From an uncultured bacterium (GTDB lineage: Bacteria; Cyanobacteriota; Vampirovibrionia; Gastranaerophilales; Gastranaerophilaceae): 64,000 nucleotides of DNA. The stretch's first letter is position 1; each line of letters begins with the position of its first letter. The notes beneath the pieces are model-generated. The model was not told where the DNA came from. It did not search any database and saw only the letters and a program-made list of their open reading frames with translations. Shown here piece after piece: positions 37,287 to 46,936 of this stretch. The position numbers and the translations under genes were made by a program. The DNA lies in NCBI GenBank assembly GCA_902783835.1, contig CACZSN010000006.1, positions 1 to 64,000 of the forward strand, given 5' to 3'.

Positions 37287-37308
37287 AAAAAAGAGCCTTG
37301 CGGCTCTT
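37287..37308 (-). terminator. Original terminator of tRNA-Glu, now separated from it
   Basis: AAGAGCC-TTGC-GGCTCTT with a T run on the minus strand. It directly follows the displaced tRNA 3' end copy (attL) and would have ended tRNA-Glu transcription before the element inserted. Confidence 0.7.
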
Positions 37309-37314
37309 AAAAAA

Positions 37315-37324
37315 ATGGTACCCC
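37315..37324 (+). repeat. Left attachment repeat (attL core)
   Basis: ATGGTACCCC is identical to 46860-46869. It equals the antisense of the last bases of tRNA-Glu including CCA. Confidence 0.7.
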
Positions 37325-37432
37325 TAGTGAAAACTAGTTGGAACCGAATAGTCTCTGACCTCCGCAGGTTTTATGAGTTGAGGCATATTGCATAATGTTT
37401 ATGTTATTATAAAAGTACGAGGAGTTTATTGC

Positions 37433-38278
37433 ATGGATAAAGATTTAACTATATTTGAGGGACAACGTATTAGACATATTTATGATGAAGAAAAAGAAGT
37501 TTATTATTTTTCAGTTGTAGATATTGTTGCCATTCTAATTGATAAAGATTATCAAAGTGCAAGAAAATACTGGAACAAATTAGCTCAACGCCTACGGGAA
37601 GAGGGTTCTGAACAAACGGTGACAAATTGTCACCAGTTGAAAATGCTAGCAGATGACGGGAAAATGCGTAAGACTGATGTTGCCGATATTAAAACTGTTT
37701 TCCGTATCATTCAGTCGATTCCTTCCAAGAAAGCTGAACCTATCAAACAATGGTTGGCTAAAGTTGGACAAGAACGTATTTTGGAAATGGCAGACCCAAC
37801 AACGGCAATAGATAGGGCTAGGGAAACTTATAAAAAACTAGGTCGTTCTGATAAATGGATTCAACAAAGAATGACGGGACAAGAAACAAGAAATAAACTC
37901 ACTGATTACTGGAAAGACCATGAAATTACAAAGAATGAAGAATTTGCAATCTTAACAAACATAATACATCAAGAGTGGAGTGGACTAAGTGTTAAAGAAC
38001 ATAAACAATTAAAGAATTTAAAATCTCAAAACTTACGAGACCATATGAGTGAAGCTGAACTTATTTTTACAGCCTTAGCAGAGCTTTCAACAAGGCAAAT
38101 TGCAGAATCCGAAAACTCTACAGGGCTAGAAGAAAATAAAAAATCCGCCAAACGTGGTGGTAAAATAGCGAAAGAGGCAAAAGAAAAACTCGAATTGGAA
38201 ACTGGAAAGAAGGTTGTAACAGGAGAAAACTTTATTCCCCAACAGAAACGGCAAATCAAAAATAAAGATGAGATTTGA
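37433..38278 (+). CDS. BRO-N / DinD-like protein (antirepressor family)
   Basis: This 281-residue protein resembles the BRO family N-terminal domain proteins often annotated as phage antirepressor or DNA-damage-inducible protein D. The segment VYYFSVVDIVAILIDKDYQS and ARKYWNKLAQRLREEGSEQ is the BRO-N core. KMRKTDVADIKTVFRIIQSI and KAEPIKQWLAKVGQERI continue it, and the C-terminal half is typical of the longer DinD-like group (GRSDKWIQQRM, NLRDHMSEAELIFTALAEL, KRGGKIAKEAKEKLE). ATG 37433 has CGAGGAG 8 bases upstream. It heads a four-gene operon in the element; a sensor or regulatory role is inferred. Confidence 0.8.
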   Translation: MDKDLTIFEGQRIRHIYDEEKEVYYFSVVDIVAILIDKDYQSARKYWNKLAQRLREEGSEQTVTNCHQLKMLADDGKMRKTDVADIKTVFRIIQSIPSKKAEPIKQWLAKVGQERILEMADPTTAIDRARETYKKLGRSDKWIQQRMTGQETRNKLTDYWKDHEITKNEEFAILTNIIHQEWSGLSVKEHKQLKNLKSQNLRDHMSEAELIFTALAELSTRQIAESENSTGLEENKKSAKRGGKIAKEAKEKLELETGKKVVTGENFIPQQKRQIKNKDEI

Positions 38279-38312
38279 AATTAAACGCAATAATCAAAAA
38301 GGAAAAAACTTT

Positions 38313-40121
38313 ATGTCATTATTGGAAATTCAAGAATATTTAGAAAGCAATGTTAAAATATTAGACCATTTATATAAATTTGCCGAATTTATATCATCTA
38401 AAAAATCTGAAGACATTTCAGCTACTGATATAACAAAATTTGATATTGAAAATAGTATTTTTTCAATAATTGAGCATATCAAAACTAAACGTTTAGATTG
38501 GATGGTTAAATCTTATGAAATTATTTCACAAGATTACAATTACGTTATTCAAAGAATAAAACAAACAAAAAATCCATTATTAAAAGCTATTTACTCTGAA
38601 ATATTATATTATTCTGATGAACAAAAATATAAAACCTATATTCAGCAGGCGGTAGAAAGTTATTACGAAGTATTAGATAGATTTTGCATTGAATTATCAA
38701 ATAAATCGACTGATGATTTTATTCATAGCATGATAGATGTTATGAGAAAACTTATACATCTAGCAGTTAAGTCTAAAACCTCAAAGTTAAAGGATATAAA
38801 AAAACTAATTTTAAAAATTATTCAAGTAGATAGTAATGTTAAATTGTATCACTATCTGATTGTTTCTATTATTGAATTGATGTTTGAATATAATAAAACC
38901 TTTAAAAAAAATGATTTTGATGGTGTTGATGATATTTTTTGGAACCTAGTTCAGTTAAAGCTAAAAGAGAAAAATTATCACTATTTAATAAATATAATTC
39001 CTAAATATGGTAATAAAATTGATGAAAAAAGAGGGAAACTATCATATCCTTGGGATGAAGTGTTAGGGAAATGTTTTATAAAAGCAATGGAAAAAGCTGA
39101 TTCTAATCTAACCGCAAGACATTGGTGTATAGATGCAATAAAACACTATACAAGATTAAATAAGTATACAAATAAAATAAAACAACTAGAGCAAAAATAC
39201 ATATCTTTTAAAGATAAATTAGAGTTTACAGAGTTTAAAGAAAATATTGATACTAAACCATTTACAGATGCTGCTGAAGAGATTTTAATGCATTCTCCTA
39301 TAGAAATTTTTAAAATATTATCAGTATCTAATGATTTATACACATCATTAGAGAGTTTAAAAACTCAAGGTGGTGTATTTGATGATATCTTCCCCACCTC
39401 ATATCTTGACCATAATTTGCATCCTTCCAAAATATCATCATTGAAAACTGAACAGGATTTGTATCTTACTAATTATAAATGGTACTGGCAATTATATCAG
39501 ATAACGATACAATACATTCTTATTGAGGGAATTAGGAATAAAAAAATTAAGTTACAAGACTTAATAAATTTTTTGATGAGTTATAGTAGCTTTTTTGATT
39601 TAATAACTACATCCCAATCAAAGAAAAAGCGTTTACGATATAACTGGAGTGCAACTATTATCTCAATTTTTGAGACATATTTCAACGAAATTGAAAAGAG
39701 TTTTGAAGCTCCTAAAAAGTATTATCCTTATTTAGTAACAATAACAGAAAGCCTTGTCCTTAAATTTGAAACTTGGATAAGACATTACCTAGCCTGTTAT
39801 AAACAACCAACTATATCCTCTTTACCTCAAGAAAATGGTATTATTAGAGAAAAAGATTTAAATTATCTTTTATATGATGAATTTATCATTGAGAAATTTG
39901 ATTTTAATGATTTATTATATTTTAGGTATTTATTTATAGCCAAAGAAGGCTGGAATTTACGTAATGAAATTGCACATGGCGTTTTAATTCCTGAACAATA
40001 TACTGTTGAATTATTTAATTGGGTATTTTTTGCATTTTTACGCTTAGCAAAATACGATTTTCCTACGGCTGAAAGAAATCGACTTGTGAAAAACAGAAAA
40101 CAACGATTATTAAAATTATAA
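38313..40121 (+). CDS. DUF4209-like protein with HEPN-type RxxxxH motif
   Basis: The 602-residue, largely helical protein ends in a region resembling DUF4209: LYFRYLFIAKEGWNLRNEIA followed by HGVLIPEQYTVELF. The RNEIAH hexad (Arg550 to His555) matches the R-x4-6-H signature of HEPN ribonucleases found in toxins and anti-phage systems. The first 500 residues are helical repeat-like with no known domain. AAAAGGA precedes ATG 38313. It is 34 bp after the BRO-like gene and 12 bp before the HNH gene. An RNase effector is a hypothesis. Confidence 0.7.
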   Translation: MSLLEIQEYLESNVKILDHLYKFAEFISSKKSEDISATDITKFDIENSIFSIIEHIKTKRLDWMVKSYEIISQDYNYVIQRIKQTKNPLLKAIYSEILYYSDEQKYKTYIQQAVESYYEVLDRFCIELSNKSTDDFIHSMIDVMRKLIHLAVKSKTSKLKDIKKLILKIIQVDSNVKLYHYLIVSIIELMFEYNKTFKKNDFDGVDDIFWNLVQLKLKEKNYHYLINIIPKYGNKIDEKRGKLSYPWDEVLGKCFIKAMEKADSNLTARHWCIDAIKHYTRLNKYTNKIKQLEQKYISFKDKLEFTEFKENIDTKPFTDAAEEILMHSPIEIFKILSVSNDLYTSLESLKTQGGVFDDIFPTSYLDHNLHPSKISSLKTEQDLYLTNYKWYWQLYQITIQYILIEGIRNKKIKLQDLINFLMSYSSFFDLITTSQSKKKRLRYNWSATIISIFETYFNEIEKSFEAPKKYYPYLVTITESLVLKFETWIRHYLACYKQPTISSLPQENGIIREKDLNYLLYDEFIIEKFDFNDLLYFRYLFIAKEGWNLRNEIAHGVLIPEQYTVELFNWVFFAFLRLAKYDFPTAERNRLVKNRKQRLLKL

Positions 40122-40133
40122 TAAGGAATTAAT

Positions 40134-40832
40134 ATGACACAGTGTATTTATTATAAAAATAAAACAGGCTTAACCTTTAACAAACGAGAACATATTTTCC
40201 CTAAAGCTATTGGAGGAATAGAAAGGCTTGATAATGGTGTTGTATCTGACCAAGCTAATGAATTTTTTGCAAATAATCTTGAAGTAAAAACTCTCCGTAC
40301 ATCTGAGGTTTTTGTAGGTCGTTTTGTAAATGGATATAATAAAAAGCCTAGTAAAGAAAAAAAGAAAAATAGAACCTTGCCCGAATATTTATATAATAGA
40401 GAGATTGATTCAAGAACATTAGGCAAGATAGCTTTTAACGTATTAGCGAAGATTAAAGGTAAGGATTATGTATTAAAACCAGAATTTGACGAATTTAGAA
40501 ATTGGATAATAGGCGGAAACAATGATTGGTATCATTGTAAAATGGGAAAAGAGATTATTGCAAGTACACAAATAATGCCAAATCAGTCTCATTATTGTGT
40601 GTTTGTAGATGATGGAGAATATTTAATCGCGGATATTTGCCTATACAATTATTGGAGAAAAATGTTCGGTATCTGTAAAAAATTTGATGATAATTTTGTT
40701 ATTCCGCAAGGTTATATTTGCGATTGGAATAATAAAAGAGAGTTTACCCTTATAGATTTAATGCATGAAATTGCAAATGAAGAAGAATATAAATATTTAA
40801 AATCAAAGGAGAATAGCAATGCTTTGGGATAA
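40134..40832 (+). CDS. HNH endonuclease-like protein with degenerate zinc site
   Basis: This 232-residue protein begins CIYYKNKTGLTFNKREHIFP followed by KAIGG, resembling the HNH_5-type pattern C-x2-C ... EHI-x-P-x-x-x-GG. In a typical member the first motif is CIYC and a later CxxC sits before a Asn; here these read CIYY and SDQAN, so zinc-binding Cys residues are lost while the catalytic EH is kept. The C-terminal 150 residues match nothing I know. AAGGA precedes ATG. It overlaps the next gene by 14 bp. Confidence 0.65.
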   Translation: MTQCIYYKNKTGLTFNKREHIFPKAIGGIERLDNGVVSDQANEFFANNLEVKTLRTSEVFVGRFVNGYNKKPSKEKKKNRTLPEYLYNREIDSRTLGKIAFNVLAKIKGKDYVLKPEFDEFRNWIIGGNNDWYHCKMGKEIIASTQIMPNQSHYCVFVDDGEYLIADICLYNYWRKMFGICKKFDDNFVIPQGYICDWNNKREFTLIDLMHEIANEEEYKYLKSKENSNALG

Positions 40833-41970
40833 TTTGTCGGCATCGATAGAGAATGATTACATAGATTTTAAGCAGGAGTGGTACACTAATGATAAACTAG
40901 GCGACGTTGATATGATACACGACATATTATGTATGAGTAACTCACTTACAGATAGTTTTGACAGGTATATTGTCATTGGTATAGAAGAAGATAAATCTAC
41001 AAAAGAGAAAATAATTCATGATGTAAGTGCAGATAATAATTGCCGACAAAGTGCTGATGTCATTCAAGCTTTAAGAAATTATATGTCAGTTATTCCCAAT
41101 ATTGAGTTAATAAGAGAACAAACCGATAGTGGATATATTGATATTATAAAAATTATGCCAGTTGCTAGGGAATTGCCGTATGTTTTAAATAAAGAGTGTC
41201 AAGCTCAGAAACCTAATGGTAAAAAAGTTACAGTTAGGAAAGAATGGATATATTCAAGAAATTCGGATAGAAACACACCAAAAGATGAGTGTTGCACAAA
41301 AGCAGAATTAGAAGAATTGTTTGCACGCAAGCGAGGAGAACATCTTCCTATTTTAGAAAGGTTCTCAATGTATCTTGATGATATTCATAATTGGAAACAT
41401 CCGAAAAGTGAATATGAAATAGCCGAAAGCGAAACTGCATATTACTACTCTTTGAATCATAAGTTTAAAATTGTAAGAAGTAATAGAGATTTAGACAAAA
41501 CAATATCATTATCACTTGCTAATTCTTATGATGAACTTCTTACTGATACATGTATAGGTGTAGATTATTGGAATTATCGCAATACACAAAATTATTGTTA
41601 TGATGATTGCATAAATCTTTTTAATGTAGAACTATGGGCAGATAATACATTAATAGAAGTTTTTAATATTACGGGAATGTTTATTAAGCATTTTAATTAC
41701 GATAGATATTATGGCTCTTACTATGTGCCTAATCGGATGCATTTGATTGAAAGTGATATTACTATTAATAATAGTAGCGACATAGAAAAGCTACTCGTTT
41801 GGAAAATATGTAAACTACTTTTTCATTTCAACCTATATGATGGCTGTAATTTAGTTACAGACGATGCTTCAAGAATTTTAGAAATATTAAACTATAATTA
41901 TTTACAAAATCCGAGTGAATATCGTAAACAAAATGAAGACTGGCTTTATCTACCAATTAAAAGTAAATAA
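40819..41970 (+). CDS. AlbA_2 (Schlafen-like) domain protein
   Basis: The N-terminal 130 residues fit the AlbA_2/Schlafen core: NDYIDFKQEWY, MIHDILCMSNS, DRYIVIGIEED and a VTVRKEWIYSRNSDRNTP ending. Such domains bind nucleic acid and some have RNase activity; the ExD/FKxxW face is present here. The remaining 250 residues are unassigned. ATG 40819 follows AAAGGAG inside the end of the HNH gene. It closes the four-gene operon. Confidence 0.75.
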   Translation: MLWDNLSASIENDYIDFKQEWYTNDKLGDVDMIHDILCMSNSLTDSFDRYIVIGIEEDKSTKEKIIHDVSADNNCRQSADVIQALRNYMSVIPNIELIREQTDSGYIDIIKIMPVARELPYVLNKECQAQKPNGKKVTVRKEWIYSRNSDRNTPKDECCTKAELEELFARKRGEHLPILERFSMYLDDIHNWKHPKSEYEIAESETAYYYSLNHKFKIVRSNRDLDKTISLSLANSYDELLTDTCIGVDYWNYRNTQNYCYDDCINLFNVELWADNTLIEVFNITGMFIKHFNYDRYYGSYYVPNRMHLIESDITINNSSDIEKLLVWKICKLLFHFNLYDGCNLVTDDASRILEILNYNYLQNPSEYRKQNEDWLYLPIKSK

Positions 41971-42030
41971 TAACGACAGAAAACGACTAAAATAGCTGTA
42001 TAAATTTTATATCTGCAGTAAAATATCAGT

Positions 42031-42405
42031 ATGAATTATAGTATTGAAGATTTTACAAATTATATCGGTAGTAAGACTTGGAAAAATGCCAAGACCTTTG
42101 AACATTTTGCTCCACATGAGTATGTTTTGAGTTTTCCGTGTGAAAAGTTAAAAGCAGAAAATAAATGCCCGAGCAATTGCGACATCTGCAAAGCTGAACG
42201 AAAGGCTTTTGAGGATGCTGTTATGTTTATTCGTGAAAATGGCGAGCGTGCAAAGTTTCAAAACAGAATTTATACGATGCTTTGTCTAGGCAATTATCAA
42301 TACTGGACAATGGGCGACCCGCTTGAAACAACTTGGGTACTTAACAAAGCATTAATCAATGACCCTCGCTGTAAAGTAAAAACATACTGGCTTGATAGAG
42401 TCTAA
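42031..42405 (+). CDS. Hypothetical Cys-rich protein
   Basis: This 124-residue protein has a Cys cluster (SFPCEKLKAENKCPSNCDIC) that may bind zinc and a segment NYQYWTMGDPLETTWVLNKA; I cannot name the family. A TATAAA-like -10 lies about 30 bp upstream; the SD is weak. It ends 4 bp inside the convergent PD-(D/E)XK gene, which hints at a linked pair. Confidence 0.6.
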   Translation: MNYSIEDFTNYIGSKTWKNAKTFEHFAPHEYVLSFPCEKLKAENKCPSNCDICKAERKAFEDAVMFIRENGERAKFQNRIYTMLCLGNYQYWTMGDPLETTWVLNKALINDPRCKVKTYWLDRV

Positions 42406-43436
42406 AGAAGGTCGATATACTCTTTTGCTTGTTTTATCAAGTCATCTACCATTTCAAACTCATTTGTATTACGCTTTGGATAAAGCGGTACAATCAGCAT
42501 ATCGGATTTATCAGATTTCTCTATCAAGTATTTTTTACCTTTATCATCCAAGTTGTAACGGAGTTTTGGCGAATATGTAACCCAATTATTGTTTTCATCA
42601 ATAGTCTTAAATGTCATCCAAAATGGAGTCGTTTTTCCGCAAATCCCTTTTTGCCATAAATTACAACTAAATTGAATGCTTAAGCCAGTCGAAGGATTAT
42701 CTATTCTTAAGTAGCGACAGTACCCGCCTTTTTGTGGAGTAGCTTTAACACCTTTTGAATTACAAATTTTATGAATTAAAAGACTATCAGCAATTTTGTC
42801 AACAATTCTGTAGTAATCTACGATGCGATTTGCCATGTTAGAACTTAAATCACCTGCTGAAAACGGCTTAAAATCCTGATTATTCATTTCTCCAGTAAGC
42901 CCTTTTAACTGTAGTAAATCATTATACAAAGTATCTTCCTGTAAAACATTATCAAGTAGATTAAGAACTTCTTCCCAAGATAAAACAAGCATTGGAGGCT
43001 TGCCGTCTTTTTGTAATAATCTGCCTTGTGGTTTCTCGTATTCAGCAGAAGCGGCAAGTTCATCAACAAGCGATATAATTCTTGATTTAGGACATACAAA
43101 TATAAGTCCTTTCCCACCTTTTTTCTGTAATCGCTCAAGGTAGGTATTAGGCTGATTGTCAGTCAGATTTGCCCAAAACTTCATTTCAAAAATTAAGATT
43201 TCATCATTATGTGTATTCCTTAAAGACATATCAGGTCTTTCAAGATTTTCTCCGCATGATTGAAGCTCAAAATGCAAGTCTTTTTCAAACAGGAGACCTA
43301 ATTCAGTTCCAATATAGTCCAATAAAGTATCACGAGCAGTTGTTGAATTTTGCAGGATATAATGCAGGCTCATTGTTGCAATATCTTCAGTTGATGTTCC
43401 AACACTATTAGCAATATGACACAATAATAAACTCAT
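42402..43436 (-). CDS. PD-(D/E)XK superfamily nuclease-like protein
   Basis: This 344-residue protein has the core ERPDMSLRNTHNDEILIFEM followed by KFWANLTDNQPNTYLERL. Pro68-Asp69 and Glu84-x-Lys86 give the PD-x(14)-ExK site, and the following LTDNQ-x-x-Y resembles nuclease-like proteins in mobile and defence loci. The last 180 residues are of unknown type and might be a sensor. It is the only major minus-strand gene in the element. AAAGGAGA precedes ATG 43436. Confidence 0.75.
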   Translation of the reverse strand: MSLLLCHIANSVGTSTEDIATMSLHYILQNSTTARDTLLDYIGTELGLLFEKDLHFELQSCGENLERPDMSLRNTHNDEILIFEMKFWANLTDNQPNTYLERLQKKGGKGLIFVCPKSRIISLVDELAASAEYEKPQGRLLQKDGKPPMLVLSWEEVLNLLDNVLQEDTLYNDLLQLKGLTGEMNNQDFKPFSAGDLSSNMANRIVDYYRIVDKIADSLLIHKICNSKGVKATPQKGGYCRYLRIDNPSTGLSIQFSCNLWQKGICGKTTPFWMTFKTIDENNNWVTYSPKLRYNLDDKGKKYLIEKSDKSDMLIVPLYPKRNTNEFEMVDDLIKQAKEYIDLL

Positions 43437-43604
43437 TACATTCTCCTTTCAAGTTCAACTGTAAAAATAAGTAAAATCTCTAATTCAAAATGATTATATC
43501 TTAACTGAAACAATTTTATCAAGCTAAAACTCCATTTTGAATTTATGTAAATTAACATTTTAATTTAATACCATGATGTTGATGCTTAAATTGAGGTATT
43601 GACA

Positions 43605-43919
43605 GTGGATAACAGAAAATTATTAGGTTTAAGAATAAAAGAATTACGCAAAAGAGCTTCACTAAGTCAGGAAGTTCTAGCAGAAAAAGCAGGAATTGAG
43701 CCAACATCACTTAGTAATATTGAAAATGGGAGAAATTTCCCGTCATTTATTACATTGGAAAATATTATGCGGGTATTGAATGTCGGGTATTTTGATGTAT
43801 TTCAGTTTGCACAATATGCACCCGCTGATGATTTAATCCAAGAAATCACAACAATTTTAAAAGATAATCCTGAACGAGTAAAAGATGCTTATAAAATTAT
43901 AAAAGCTCTTGTTGATTAA
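43605..43919 (+). CDS. XRE-family regulator of the element
   Basis: The 104-residue protein has an N-terminal HTH: IKELRKRASLSQEVLAEKAG and IEPTSLSNIENGRNFPS, plus a short helical tail (DLIQEITTILKDNPERVKDA). GTG 43605 is chosen because GAGG lies 8 bases upstream; TTG 43599 is too close. It is divergent from the nuclease gene and may control it or the recombinase module. Confidence 0.85.
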   Translation: MDNRKLLGLRIKELRKRASLSQEVLAEKAGIEPTSLSNIENGRNFPSFITLENIMRVLNVGYFDVFQFAQYAPADDLIQEITTILKDNPERVKDAYKIIKALVD

Positions 43920-43982
43920 TTTAACGGTGGCTGACGGTGGAGTTTGTAAAATTTTATTAAACTTCTAAAGAATTATACTTGT

Positions 43983-44019
43983 ATGTATATTTTAACTATG
44001 TTAATATAAAAATATACAT
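43983..44019. promoter_or_regulatory. Inverted repeat upstream of the MerR-like gene
   Basis: ATGTATATTTT (43983-43993) and AAAATATACAT (44009-44019) are perfect 11-bp arms 15 bp apart, followed by TATAAT at 44025-44030. It is a likely operator. Confidence 0.5.
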
Positions 44020-44049
44020 TAGTGTATAATTTCAAAAGAGGTTATTAAT

Positions 44050-44922
44050 ATGACTAGTTCTAAAAACTCAAATAACATAAGTCAAAAGACATTTTTACAA
44101 ATTCATTCTCTTTTAGAATTTGATAACATAGTTGGAACTAATGTTTATAATAAGACTTTTGCAGAGGTTGAGAATATTAATGAACCTCGTTACTATCCGC
44201 AACAGATTATTAAATTAATACCTGAAATAACATCACGGAAATTAAATGATTGGGATGCAAAAGGTTTACTCGTACAACATCGTCAAAGTGATAACGGTTG
44301 GCGCTTGTTTTCTCTTGCAGATGTTATTCGCTTAAGGATTATTCAAGATTTAAAAACTTACGGGATGTCAAATATCCAAATTCAAAAGACTTTAAACGAT
44401 ATTTTTGAATCAAACGACATGAAACGACAGTATTTATTCGAAACCTTTTTAAATGTATGTGCAACAGCAAGAAAGGTTGTTATTATTGTAGAATTTGATG
44501 GAAGTGCATCGTTCTATTTAGAAGATACTGCTTATGTTAATTTAAAAATGGATAAAAGCTGTTGTAAACCTGTTTTAATTCTTCCGTTTTACGACTACTG
44601 TATGCCGTTTATGCCCCATAATGGGTATAAAATGGCTATAACTACCGCTGAGATTGTAAACGAGCAAAGTAGGGCAAGGATTGATGCCGTAGCCGATAAA
44701 TTAATTAATAATGAAAATAAAAACATTAACATAGAACGAAAAAATACTAGAGGAAAAGAGTATTTAATAATGAAAACAACATCAACTGAGACAAATTTAA
44801 ATTTGTCACCTAAAGAGTTGATGAATAGGATTAAAAGTAAACCTTATACAAAAACAATACCTTTTGTTGATGAAAATGGAGCAATGTCTATAACAACAGA
44901 GGTAACGGATAAAATTAAATAA
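44050..44922 (+). CDS. MerR-like HTH protein
   Basis: The 290-residue protein has a MerR-type winged HTH at about 45-115: RYYPQQIIKLIPEITSRKLN, then a GLLVQHRQSDNGWRLFSLAD segment (wing) and VIRLRIIQDLKTYGMSNIQI. A C-terminal domain of 170 residues is unassigned. GAGG precedes ATG. Its position before two small genes and the recombinase suggests control of excision or transfer. Confidence 0.75.
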   Translation: MTSSKNSNNISQKTFLQIHSLLEFDNIVGTNVYNKTFAEVENINEPRYYPQQIIKLIPEITSRKLNDWDAKGLLVQHRQSDNGWRLFSLADVIRLRIIQDLKTYGMSNIQIQKTLNDIFESNDMKRQYLFETFLNVCATARKVVIIVEFDGSASFYLEDTAYVNLKMDKSCCKPVLILPFYDYCMPFMPHNGYKMAITTAEIVNEQSRARIDAVADKLINNENKNINIERKNTRGKEYLIMKTTSTETNLNLSPKELMNRIKSKPYTKTIPFVDENGAMSITTEVTDKIK

Positions 44923-45027
44923 ATTCAGTGGCTAAAAAATAGAGCTGAATTATTCGGATAACAAAATATTTTAAGGCGGCAACAAGAGACGTTGAACCTT
45001 AATACAAAAGCAAAAGGATGGATAACC

Positions 45028-45210
45028 ATGCTTAGTATTAAGGCGTGCAGACATAGTCTTAGAAAGTATGCCAAAGATTTAGATGATAGTGAAGTTGAGG
45101 CTATCAGAGATTTAATGTACCAATTAGCATTTGTTATGGTAGAAGATTACCTGAATAAATGCTCTAAAATTGTGCCGATTACGGCGGAAAGGAACACAAA
45201 TGAAAAATGA
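45028..45210 (+). CDS. Small hypothetical protein of the element
   Basis: A 60-residue helical protein (SLRKYAKDLDDSEVEAIRDL) with AAAGGA upstream of ATG 45028. It overlaps the next gene by 11 bp in another frame, which supports expression. No family known. Confidence 0.6.
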   Translation: MLSIKACRHSLRKYAKDLDDSEVEAIRDLMYQLAFVMVEDYLNKCSKIVPITAERNTNEK

Positions 45211-45379
45211 CGATTTTTTGAAGTTATTAGAAGACCCTGAGTTCAGAAATTCTCCGTTAGGTGAACTCCAAGCTACCTTGCAGGAGGCTTTTAAGCAGTA
45301 TGAATGGCGAATAAGAAGTGAACGCATAAAAGCGGGTATTAGAGAAGCAAAATTAAGAAAGGCAGGTAAGGCGAAGTAA
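45200..45379 (+). CDS. Small basic protein resembling a serine-recombinase helix
   Basis: This 59-residue protein ends in YEWRIRSERIKAGIREAKLR, which resembles the alphaE helix segment of serine recombinases, including its neighbour's KSERVTAGMKQAFLTG. The rest is acidic-helical. AAAGGA precedes ATG 45200. It lies 28 bp before the recombinase; a role as recombination directionality factor or interaction partner is a guess. Confidence 0.65.
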   Translation: MKNDDFLKLLEDPEFRNSPLGELQATLQEAFKQYEWRIRSERIKAGIREAKLRKAGKAK

Positions 45380-45407
45380 TCCCGCCTCCTAATGAAAGGA
45401 AAAATTT

Positions 45408-46901
45408 ATGAGTAATGCAATTATTTATACAAGGGTTTCAACGAAAGAACAAGCAGAGGGTGGATATAGCTTGTCAAATCAAGACAAAGAATGTAAAAAA
45501 TTTGCTATAGATAATAAGTTTTCAATACTTAAAGTTTATGAAGAAAGAGGTGAAAGTGCAAAAACAACAGCTAGAACAGAATTACAACATTTAATGCGTT
45601 ACTGCACTCAAAATAAAAAAGAAATTGATGCACTTATTATATGGAAATTTGATAGATTAGCAAGAAACATGAAAGATTTTTATTTTTTAAATAACTATTT
45701 TAACAGTTTAAATATAAAGGTTCTTTCCGCAACAGAAGTGAATGGTGAGTCAGCAACTGAAAAATTAACTAGAAACATGTTAGGAGCCTTTGCTCAATTT
45801 GAAAATGACCAAAAATCAGAAAGAGTTACGGCTGGCATGAAACAAGCCTTTTTAACAGGTCATTGGTTGTGGAGAGCGCCAATCGGTTATATTACGAAAA
45901 ACGGTAATATTGAACCAGACCCCAAAACTGCGCATCACGTTAAAAAGATTTTCAAATTATTTTCTACAGGAATGTATGAGCAGACACAGCTTATTAAAAT
46001 TATTGAGGCTGATGGGATAAAAATTAACACTAACAGAATGTGCAGACTATTGAGAAACCCACTTTATATGGGGTATATGCATAAAAATAAGTGGTCGGAA
46101 GAACCCATTAGAGGAATTTTCGAACCACTTATTTCTGAGGCAGAATTTAAAAAAGTACAGGATATATTGAATGGCAAAAAGCCTGTTATTACCGCTTACA
46201 AGAGGAATAATCCCGAATTTCCATTAAGACAGTTCATTACCTGTCCTAATTGCAACCAACCGCTAACAGGAAGTAAATCAAAAGGAAGAAAAGAAAGATA
46301 TGCTTATTATCACTGTCATCATAAGGATTGTTGTATTAATTTCAGAATAAGAAAAGAAAAATTAGAAAAAATATTTGTAGATTACTTGAAGTTTATAAAA
46401 CCTGAACGTGATTTACTTAATTTATTTGAAGCAACGGTAAAAGATGTTTATAACGAAAAGTTATCAGTAAGGTTAAACAGCCAAAAACAGGTGCAAGATA
46501 AGTTAATTGAGCTTAAAAATAGAAAAAGTAAGTTAATTGATTTCAGATTGGATGGAACAATAAGTGAAGAGGATTATAAGTTTAAAACAAAGCAACTTGC
46601 AGAGGAAATACAAGAGCAAGAGTTCCGTTTACGTGAAGCTGACGCCGTAAGTGATGATTTAACAAAATGTCTTAAATACGCATGCAGGGCAATTTGTAAT
46701 ATTGATACAATATGGGAAAATGGGGATTTAGATTTAAAACAAAGATTGCAGAAATTAATTTTTCCTAAAGGTTTGATGTACTATTCAAACGATTTTCGAA
46801 CCGCTGAAATCTCAAGCCTATTCATTAAAAAAGACGCCTCATTGGCGTCTTATAATAATATGGTACCCCCAAGCGAATTCGAATCGCTGCCGCCTCCGTG
46901 A
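45408..46901 (+). CDS. Large serine recombinase (integrase of the element)
   Basis: This 497-codon recombinase has the resolvase domain (IIYTRVSTKEQAEGGYSLSN with catalytic Ser9 in the RVST motif, then LIIWKFDRLARN), the SERVTAGMKQAF helix, a recombinase domain (APIGYITKNG, NPLYMGYMHKN), a zinc ribbon (CPNC ... CHHKDC), and a coiled coil (about 350-415). The last 13 codons, from 46860, lie in the repeat and the antisense of tRNA-Glu, so the natural C-terminus in the excised form should differ. AAGGA precedes ATG. Confidence 0.93.
   Translation: MSNAIIYTRVSTKEQAEGGYSLSNQDKECKKFAIDNKFSILKVYEERGESAKTTARTELQHLMRYCTQNKKEIDALIIWKFDRLARNMKDFYFLNNYFNSLNIKVLSATEVNGESATEKLTRNMLGAFAQFENDQKSERVTAGMKQAFLTGHWLWRAPIGYITKNGNIEPDPKTAHHVKKIFKLFSTGMYEQTQLIKIIEADGIKINTNRMCRLLRNPLYMGYMHKNKWSEEPIRGIFEPLISEAEFKKVQDILNGKKPVITAYKRNNPEFPLRQFITCPNCNQPLTGSKSKGRKERYAYYHCHHKDCCINFRIRKEKLEKIFVDYLKFIKPERDLLNLFEATVKDVYNEKLSVRLNSQKQVQDKLIELKNRKSKLIDFRLDGTISEEDYKFKTKQLAEEIQEQEFRLREADAVSDDLTKCLKYACRAICNIDTIWENGDLDLKQRLQKLIFPKGLMYYSNDFRTAEISSLFIKKDASLASYNNMVPPSEFESLPPP
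46827..46851 (-). terminator. Element-borne terminator for tRNA-Glu
   Basis: On the minus strand AAGACGCC and GGCGTCTT with a 5-nt loop and T run. It lies about 10 bp beyond the tRNA 3' end but inside the recombinase coding sequence, replacing the terminator displaced to 37287. Confidence 0.85.
46860..46869 (+). repeat. Right attachment repeat (attR core)
   Basis: ATGGTACCCC, identical to 37315-37324. It covers the CCA end and the last acceptor-stem bases of tRNA-Glu. Confidence 0.7.
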
Positions 46902-46936
46902 AAGGGAGGTGTCCTAGGCCACTAGACGATGGGGGC
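46861..46936 (-). tRNA. tRNA-Glu (anticodon UUC)
   Basis: 76 nt including an encoded CCA. Acceptor GCCCCCA pairs with TGGGGGT (one G-U at the end). The anticodon stem CCTCC/GGAGG encloses loop CTTTCAC with TTC, and the T arm has the GATTCGAATTC loop region. It closely resembles cyanobacterial and plastid tRNA-Glu. It is the attachment site of the element, which lies at its 3' side and restores its end. Confidence 0.97.

Follow-up and report, generated by a model that had tools for sequence, protein, structure and literature searches.

The repressor of mycobacteriophage BPs loses a C-terminal degradation tag on integration. In this system, immunity is integration-dependent and attP lies within the repressor gene (PMC4557955). 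Closer to the case described here are elements with the attachment site in the integrase gene. In Mx8 and Mx9, attP is located inside the integrase gene, and in Mx8 the conversion of IntP to IntR replaces 112 residues with 13 (PMC6070905, PMC4701971). The Mx8 enzyme is described as a tyrosine integrase (PMC4701971), and its modified form is reported to be less active, with altered activity or specificity (PMC4701971, PMC6070905). Streptococcal ICEs inserted in rumA encode a single serine integrase whose gene contains the att site; their target is a protein gene, and both gene ends and frame are reciprocally exchanged (PMC4701971). The principle is already known, then, from Mx8 and, with a serine integrase, from the rumA ICEs (PMC4701971). 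In A118-type integrases, the zinc-domain motif of attB sits 5 bp nearer the centre than that of attP (PMC3783163). A paper from 2014 states that tRNA genes were not among the known targets of serine integrases (PMC4383910). We considered Bacillus phage phi105 as having the same architecture and rejected it, as its attP is annotated just downstream of the recombinase gene and not inside it.

We analysed a window of 64,000 nucleotides (contig CACZSN010000006.1) from an uncultured member of the Gastranaerophilaceae. It contains an integrative element of ~9.55 kb that spans, core to core, positions 37315-46869 (no strand assigned) and has an exact 10-bp direct repeat, ATGGTACCCC, at each end. Across the whole window, this repeat has exactly two copies, both on the plus strand (at 37315 and 46860), and none on the minus strand, with ~0.06 additional copies expected by chance. 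The attL core occupies 37315-37324 and the attR core 46860-46869, both on the plus strand, with the latter falling within codons 485-488 of a recombinase gene. The right end of the element is the 3' end of a tRNA-Glu (TTC) gene, predicted by ARAGORN at 46861-46936 on the minus strand, and this 3' end is unaltered by the insertion. The layout is that of a tRNA-gene island under the Islander definition, having the intact tRNA-Glu at one end, the tRNA-Glu 3' end as part of the 10-bp repeat at 37315 at the other, and an integrase gene inside, except that this integrase is a serine recombinase instead of a member of the tyrosine family. A Pfam scan of 10 ORFs of the element, several of which match nothing, showed no conjugation module. 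Genus mates possess tRNA-Glu genes that are free of the element, and because their left flank lacks synteny with the window, no flank-to-flank empty site is demonstrated. In one relative, a tRNA-Glu 3' fragment broken by other sequence adjoins the element's left core (L006:188-370), which is perhaps the scar of an earlier insertion. The cargo at 37436-41970 of the window matched the PADLOC candidate-defence models PDC-S13 (BRO-N), PDC-S39 (DUF4209), and PDC-S50 (AlbA_2), which raises the possibility that the element is a small defence island.

In its integrated form, the recombinase gene (45408-46901, plus strand) encodes a large serine recombinase (LSR) of 497 aa. Its resolvase catalytic, Recombinase, and zinc-ribbon domains (Pfam PF00239, PF07508, and PF13408) all score above curated cut-offs, and the A118 integrase structure 4kis matches the profile. 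In an AlphaFold2 model, the integrated form has a folded structure up to about residue 475, with residues 475-497 disordered. Codon 485 is the ATG at 46860 that starts ATGGTACCCC, and the translation together with the tRNA position shows that the last 13 codons (46860-46898, plus strand), encoding MVPPSEFESLPPP, belong to the core and antisense tRNA-Glu. When the repeat is joined to the left end of the element, the frame continues as a predicted circle-form tail of 26 aa, MVPLVKTSWNRIVSDLRRFYELRHIA (37315-37392, plus strand), and stops at TAA (37393-37395). The circle junction would be expected to read ...TATAATAAT-ATGGTACCCC-TAGTGAAAAC. Because the attachment site is inside the enzyme's own gene, the end of the recombinase is cut off and swapped upon insertion into the tRNA gene. 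The preliminary description had already proposed this arrangement, and its coordinates for codon 485 and the last 13 codons were right, while its joined tail and stop codon were exact.

As in Mx8, attP is within the integrase reading frame and integration replaces the C-terminus. Since the enzyme has serine rather than tyrosine recombinase domains, the locus is Mx8-like in this respect but not a relative of Mx8. It further differs from Mx8 in that the lost tail is short and its conservation can be shown across many elements. As in the rumA ICEs, the att site is in a serine integrase gene and the excised form has another C-terminus; however, the target is a tRNA-Glu gene rather than rumA, and this gene is left intact with the frame kept. 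The available part of PMC4701971 does not mention a test of tail conservation for the rumA ICEs. BPs also couples integration to a change in a protein's C-terminus (PMC4557955), although there attP is in a repressor gene and here it is in the recombinase gene. A118-family and other large serine integrases share the domain architecture and the 5-bp shift in motif position between attP and attB, and the accessible text of PMC3783163 does not describe overlap of attP with the integrase frame or targeting of tRNA genes.

The geometry of the attachment sites is consistent with this class of enzyme. A putative zinc-domain motif of the attP arm, TTGGAACC, lies 23 nt from the core ATG (37338-37345, plus strand). 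Its counterpart in the T-arm of the tRNA gene, TTCGAATC, belongs to the attB arm and lies at a distance of 18 nt (46878-46885, plus strand). TTSGAACC or a near variant was found at offset 23 in 21/21 attP arms tested in the set comprising the tRNA-Glu and first tRNA-His clades, compared with offset 18 in the tRNA genes. The same shift of +5 bp was present in a tRNA-Asn clade and a second tRNA-His clade. As this shift is the signature expected of an LSR, it supports the inferred crossover. Differences between element ends narrowed the crossover further: the host side of L111 has no ATGG, and in both L007 and L032 the left end reads CCCC and the right end CTCC (C/T at core position 8). These differences place the exchange within the TAC at positions 5-7 of ATGGTACCCC, corresponding to 37319-37321 in attL.

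The same end of the gene also serves the tRNA. An intrinsic terminator consisting of an 8-pair stem and a T run (46825-46851, minus strand) is supplied to the tRNA by the element from inside the recombinase coding end. Its stem displays compensatory changes in relatives, with a covariation of 0.503 versus 0.212 when shuffled (0/500 as high). The last recombinase codons are the terminator on the other strand, and hence this stretch is simultaneously coding sequence, terminator, and attP flank. A hairpin read directly from the left flank, AAGAGCC-TTGC-GGCTCTT (37290-37309, minus strand), is probably the original terminator of the tRNA, displaced by the element. Separately, TTCGAACCGCTG at 46794-46806 of the window, in the FRT-motif codons, resembles tRNA T-arm sequence 83 nt off and is largely kept in relatives; the likeness is possibly due to chance.

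We compared the locus with two overlapping sets of relatives: 8 loci from Gastranaerophilales and MAGs with 67-94% identical recombinases, and another 19 genomes, from the family to which the window belongs, that carry the recombinase. Wherever the 3' end was present, the recombinase ORF crossed the core without a change of frame and continued into antisense tRNA-Glu. In a clade that is 43-45% identical, it enters antisense tRNA-His instead, also in frame. The recombinase frame was in phase with the core at 21/21 loci having both. At the left ends of relatives, different host sequences were followed by a same-frame tail of ~26 residues and then a stop. Predicted circle-form tails include MVPQIRNNWNTIVTEIYNFYELRNVA, MVLHLKKDLNQIIVTLQQFYELRNVA, and MVPHIEKNSKQIVLELYQLYELRNVA, as well as MGRVLSFSSNQLLDDLQRFDELRRIC beside tRNA-His. 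Searching 383 related genomes with a profile of the tail revealed 27 copies at element left ends, 25 of them uninterrupted, while weak matches in L120, L121, and L125 were rejected as chance. The two copies with stops (L110 and L113) are from genomes without a close match to the recombinase, which is compatible with decay once the enzyme had been lost, albeit in small numbers. All 10 distinct tails compared were open in the predicted frame, as opposed to 0/10 in either remaining forward frame. Residues conserved in the tail include ELR and FY. The 26-codon tail is not a product of chance, because the same frame and stop recur at the left ends of relatives located at other genomic sites. Searching IMG/VR for tail patterns yielded no true matches, with two apparent ones attributable to chance.

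Codon-level analysis of nine separate tail pairs indicated that the tail is maintained as protein. Synonymous change exceeded nonsynonymous change across codons 5-26 in the predicted frame (ratio 0.39, p = 1.4e-7) and across codons 13-26, which are outside the LSR half-site (ratio 0.35, p = 2e-7), with no significance in the other frames and with p-values that are approximate because the pairs were picked by eye from sequences and not from a tree. Coding selection was not significant for codons 5-12 taken alone. Immediately past the stop codon, the DNA of four relatives (L004, L005, L006, and L007) is unrelated to that of the window.

Some recombinase genes appear naturally in unsplit form. 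One contig of 39832 bases (G357:C4; loci L137, L173, and L174) encodes terminase, head-tail connector, major head protein, endolysin, and ssDNA-binding genes, and has a single attP-like core and no tRNA-His. Its unsplit LSR ends in ...KYWKNVKNGAGNGSISEPHSNIFSIMEDEECQILYHKIEKLIAA, whereas integrated relatives with 81-88% identity end in ...NGADDGIRTHEYRNHNPRP or similar. This contig is apparently a complete, unintegrated phage genome within a MAG, with its free state inferred from content because the contig has no terminal overlap. In IMG/VR, integrated relatives of this phage were found (L179 and L180) but no free form, and a scan of IMG/VR with the L127 recombinase gave no matches. Elements in tandem at tRNA-His provide another route to an intact gene, as the upstream recombinase acquires its neighbour's tail and thereby regains a complete end. 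In G149:C54 (L127/L175), a tandem array, the first LSR reads into the left-end tail of the next element and the second ends in tRNA-His. The L159 recombinase (L159/L177, G174:C3) likewise reads a complete tail at a junction without a tRNA, and a tandem pair is likely because the L134 LSR on the same contig ends in tRNA-His ~40 kb off.

Taken at the level of sequence comparison, the swap is real and the tail is a functional, selected part of the protein. The preliminary description had placed attP inside the recombinase gene, regarded the tail as protein-like, and proposed that the circle encodes a different tail from the integrated copy. These claims are strongly supported by relatives, by purifying selection confined to the predicted frame, and by natural unsplit copies. 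It had also suggested comparing relatives for the tail and the crossover point: homologues do have the tail, and L111, L007, and L032 place the exchange inside the same core.

Gene-end overlap extended well beyond this clade. We surveyed 56 LSR ORFs of the order (loci L080-L165), and 42 overlapped an antisense tRNA: His (21), Asn (12), Asp (4), Ile (2), Val (2), and Glu (1). Several of the non-overlapping rest end at contig ends or are damaged. Targeting of tRNA genes by serine integrases therefore seems to be the rule in this order. Left ends in the tRNA-Asn clade have their own conserved tail, CTTLELFVQELYEKIVDLNS..., in five copies, with a selection ratio of 0.57 (p = 0.035, two independent pairs). 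The second tRNA-His clade has yet another tail, NGASSGMISEPLKDVIISIDIELNQVLIQKIQRLIAA (L092).

As a stand-in for the circle form, we folded a weak unsplit homologue, the viral LSR L075, which ends contiguously in NNLNKIISEVKSFEILKEY. Its tail-profile score was above 2000/2000 shuffles, although the match is weak in absolute terms. In the resulting model, the end of L075 is a low-confidence helix after a disordered linker. We interpret the circle-form tail as a tethered C-terminal peptide that is possibly helical. An amphipathic helix was considered but received no support, as the hydrophobic moment was not above that of shuffles.

Large serine integrases recombine directionally, and their excision reaction calls for a directionality factor. 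Two neighbouring genes may be relevant to the reaction. A MerR-like gene (PF13411) is directly upstream of the recombinase at 44050-44922 on the plus strand, and a homologue occupies this position in 18/19 relatives, the exception (L039) being truncated upstream. Its product is, as guesswork, the best candidate for a partner or directionality factor of the recombinase. Between them is a 59-aa ORF (45200-45379, plus strand) resembling the end of the resolvase catalytic domain, in the helix E region (PF00239 positions 103-142, E = 4e-4, below the curated cut-off). It is conserved in the close tRNA-Glu clade only, and the protein might be a recombinase mimic acting as inhibitor or partner.

We consider it fairly probable that the circle-form tail is needed for integration, and that its loss helps to retain the element until it is excised by the tail-less enzyme and a partner. 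In the circle, the gene would encode a 510-aa enzyme in which a 484-aa body is followed by a C-terminal peptide of 26 aa, with the final dozen or so residues of the body serving as a short, disordered linker. Crossover in the TAC of ATGGTACCCC at the tRNA-Glu 3' end would move the last 26 codons to the far end of the element, leaving the body fused to 13 codons of core and antisense tRNA. The tail would serve integration by the circular form (attP x attB), and without it the integrated copy would have a different, probably lower, activity, which would help to keep the element where it is. Excision would be carried out by the tail-less enzyme with a partner, perhaps the adjacent MerR-like protein, and would restore the complete gene. 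By analogy with Mx8 and the rumA ICEs, a switch between integration and excision is plausible. It is unlikely, but conceivable, that the tail records the state of the element, such that a resident would be tail-less until circularization, or the tandem insertion of a second element that donates its left-end tail as in G149:C54 and at the L159 junction, resets it. If true, this would couple the mobility of residents to superinfection by related elements.

The main rival to retention by tail loss is a by-product without regulation, in which the tail works in the circular enzyme, the swap is a tolerated result of packing attP and the tRNA terminator together, and the tail-less enzyme excises adequately with no switch having been selected. 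We regard this explanation as possible but doubtful. The three roles of the coding end (tail, terminator, and attP flank) do suggest compactness, and integrated-form tails are arbitrary translations of whichever tRNA was hit. However, a stop before the core would prevent the swap, yet the open frame into attP has been kept in several clades and at six kinds of tRNA gene. It is quite improbable that the tail is instead a degradation or stabilising signal removed by integration. While a C-terminal segment that integration removes is reminiscent of the BPs repressor (PMC4557955), the extreme C-terminus, where tags are read, varies by clade (NIA/NVA, LLK, NVK, MYK, and RIC) and the conserved residues are internal, which led us to set a degron aside. 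A search for host tmRNA returned only sub-threshold matches.

Two other explanations would deny that the tail belongs to the recombinase. Conservation of attP DNA alone, with an incidental open frame, could account for the putative zinc-domain motif within codons 1-10 and the lack of significance for codons 5-12. As the sole reason it is ruled out, and as an explanation very improbable, because codons 13-26 are beyond the half-site and under frame-specific purifying selection (p = 2e-7), and the DNA directly past the stop is unrelated in several relatives. We give almost no credence to the left-end ORF being a stand-alone microprotein expressed from the integrated element, even though most tRNA-Glu elements, and most of those in the first tRNA-His clade, have a core that starts with ATG. 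Such a protein is excluded by L111, which at its core has an in-frame TAA but lacks the ATG, and by the tRNA-Asn clade, whose core is devoid of ATG; moreover, L112 has CTG, and the upstream sequence is host DNA that differs between sites.

What appears to be new, relative to the open-access literature covered, is the existence of tRNA-targeting LSRs with this overlap in several clades, together with evolutionary proof that the excised-form tail is functional. Annotated integrated elements yield the tail-less protein, and thus recombinases mined from them as tools for genome engineering may lack a functional end. The comparative evidence establishes that the recombinase includes, as a selected part, a peptide that only the circular form encodes, and that gene-end swapping is common among tRNA-targeting LSRs in one order of gut bacteria. 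Should the tail set directionality, these elements would be controlled in a manner dependent on the state of their own DNA.
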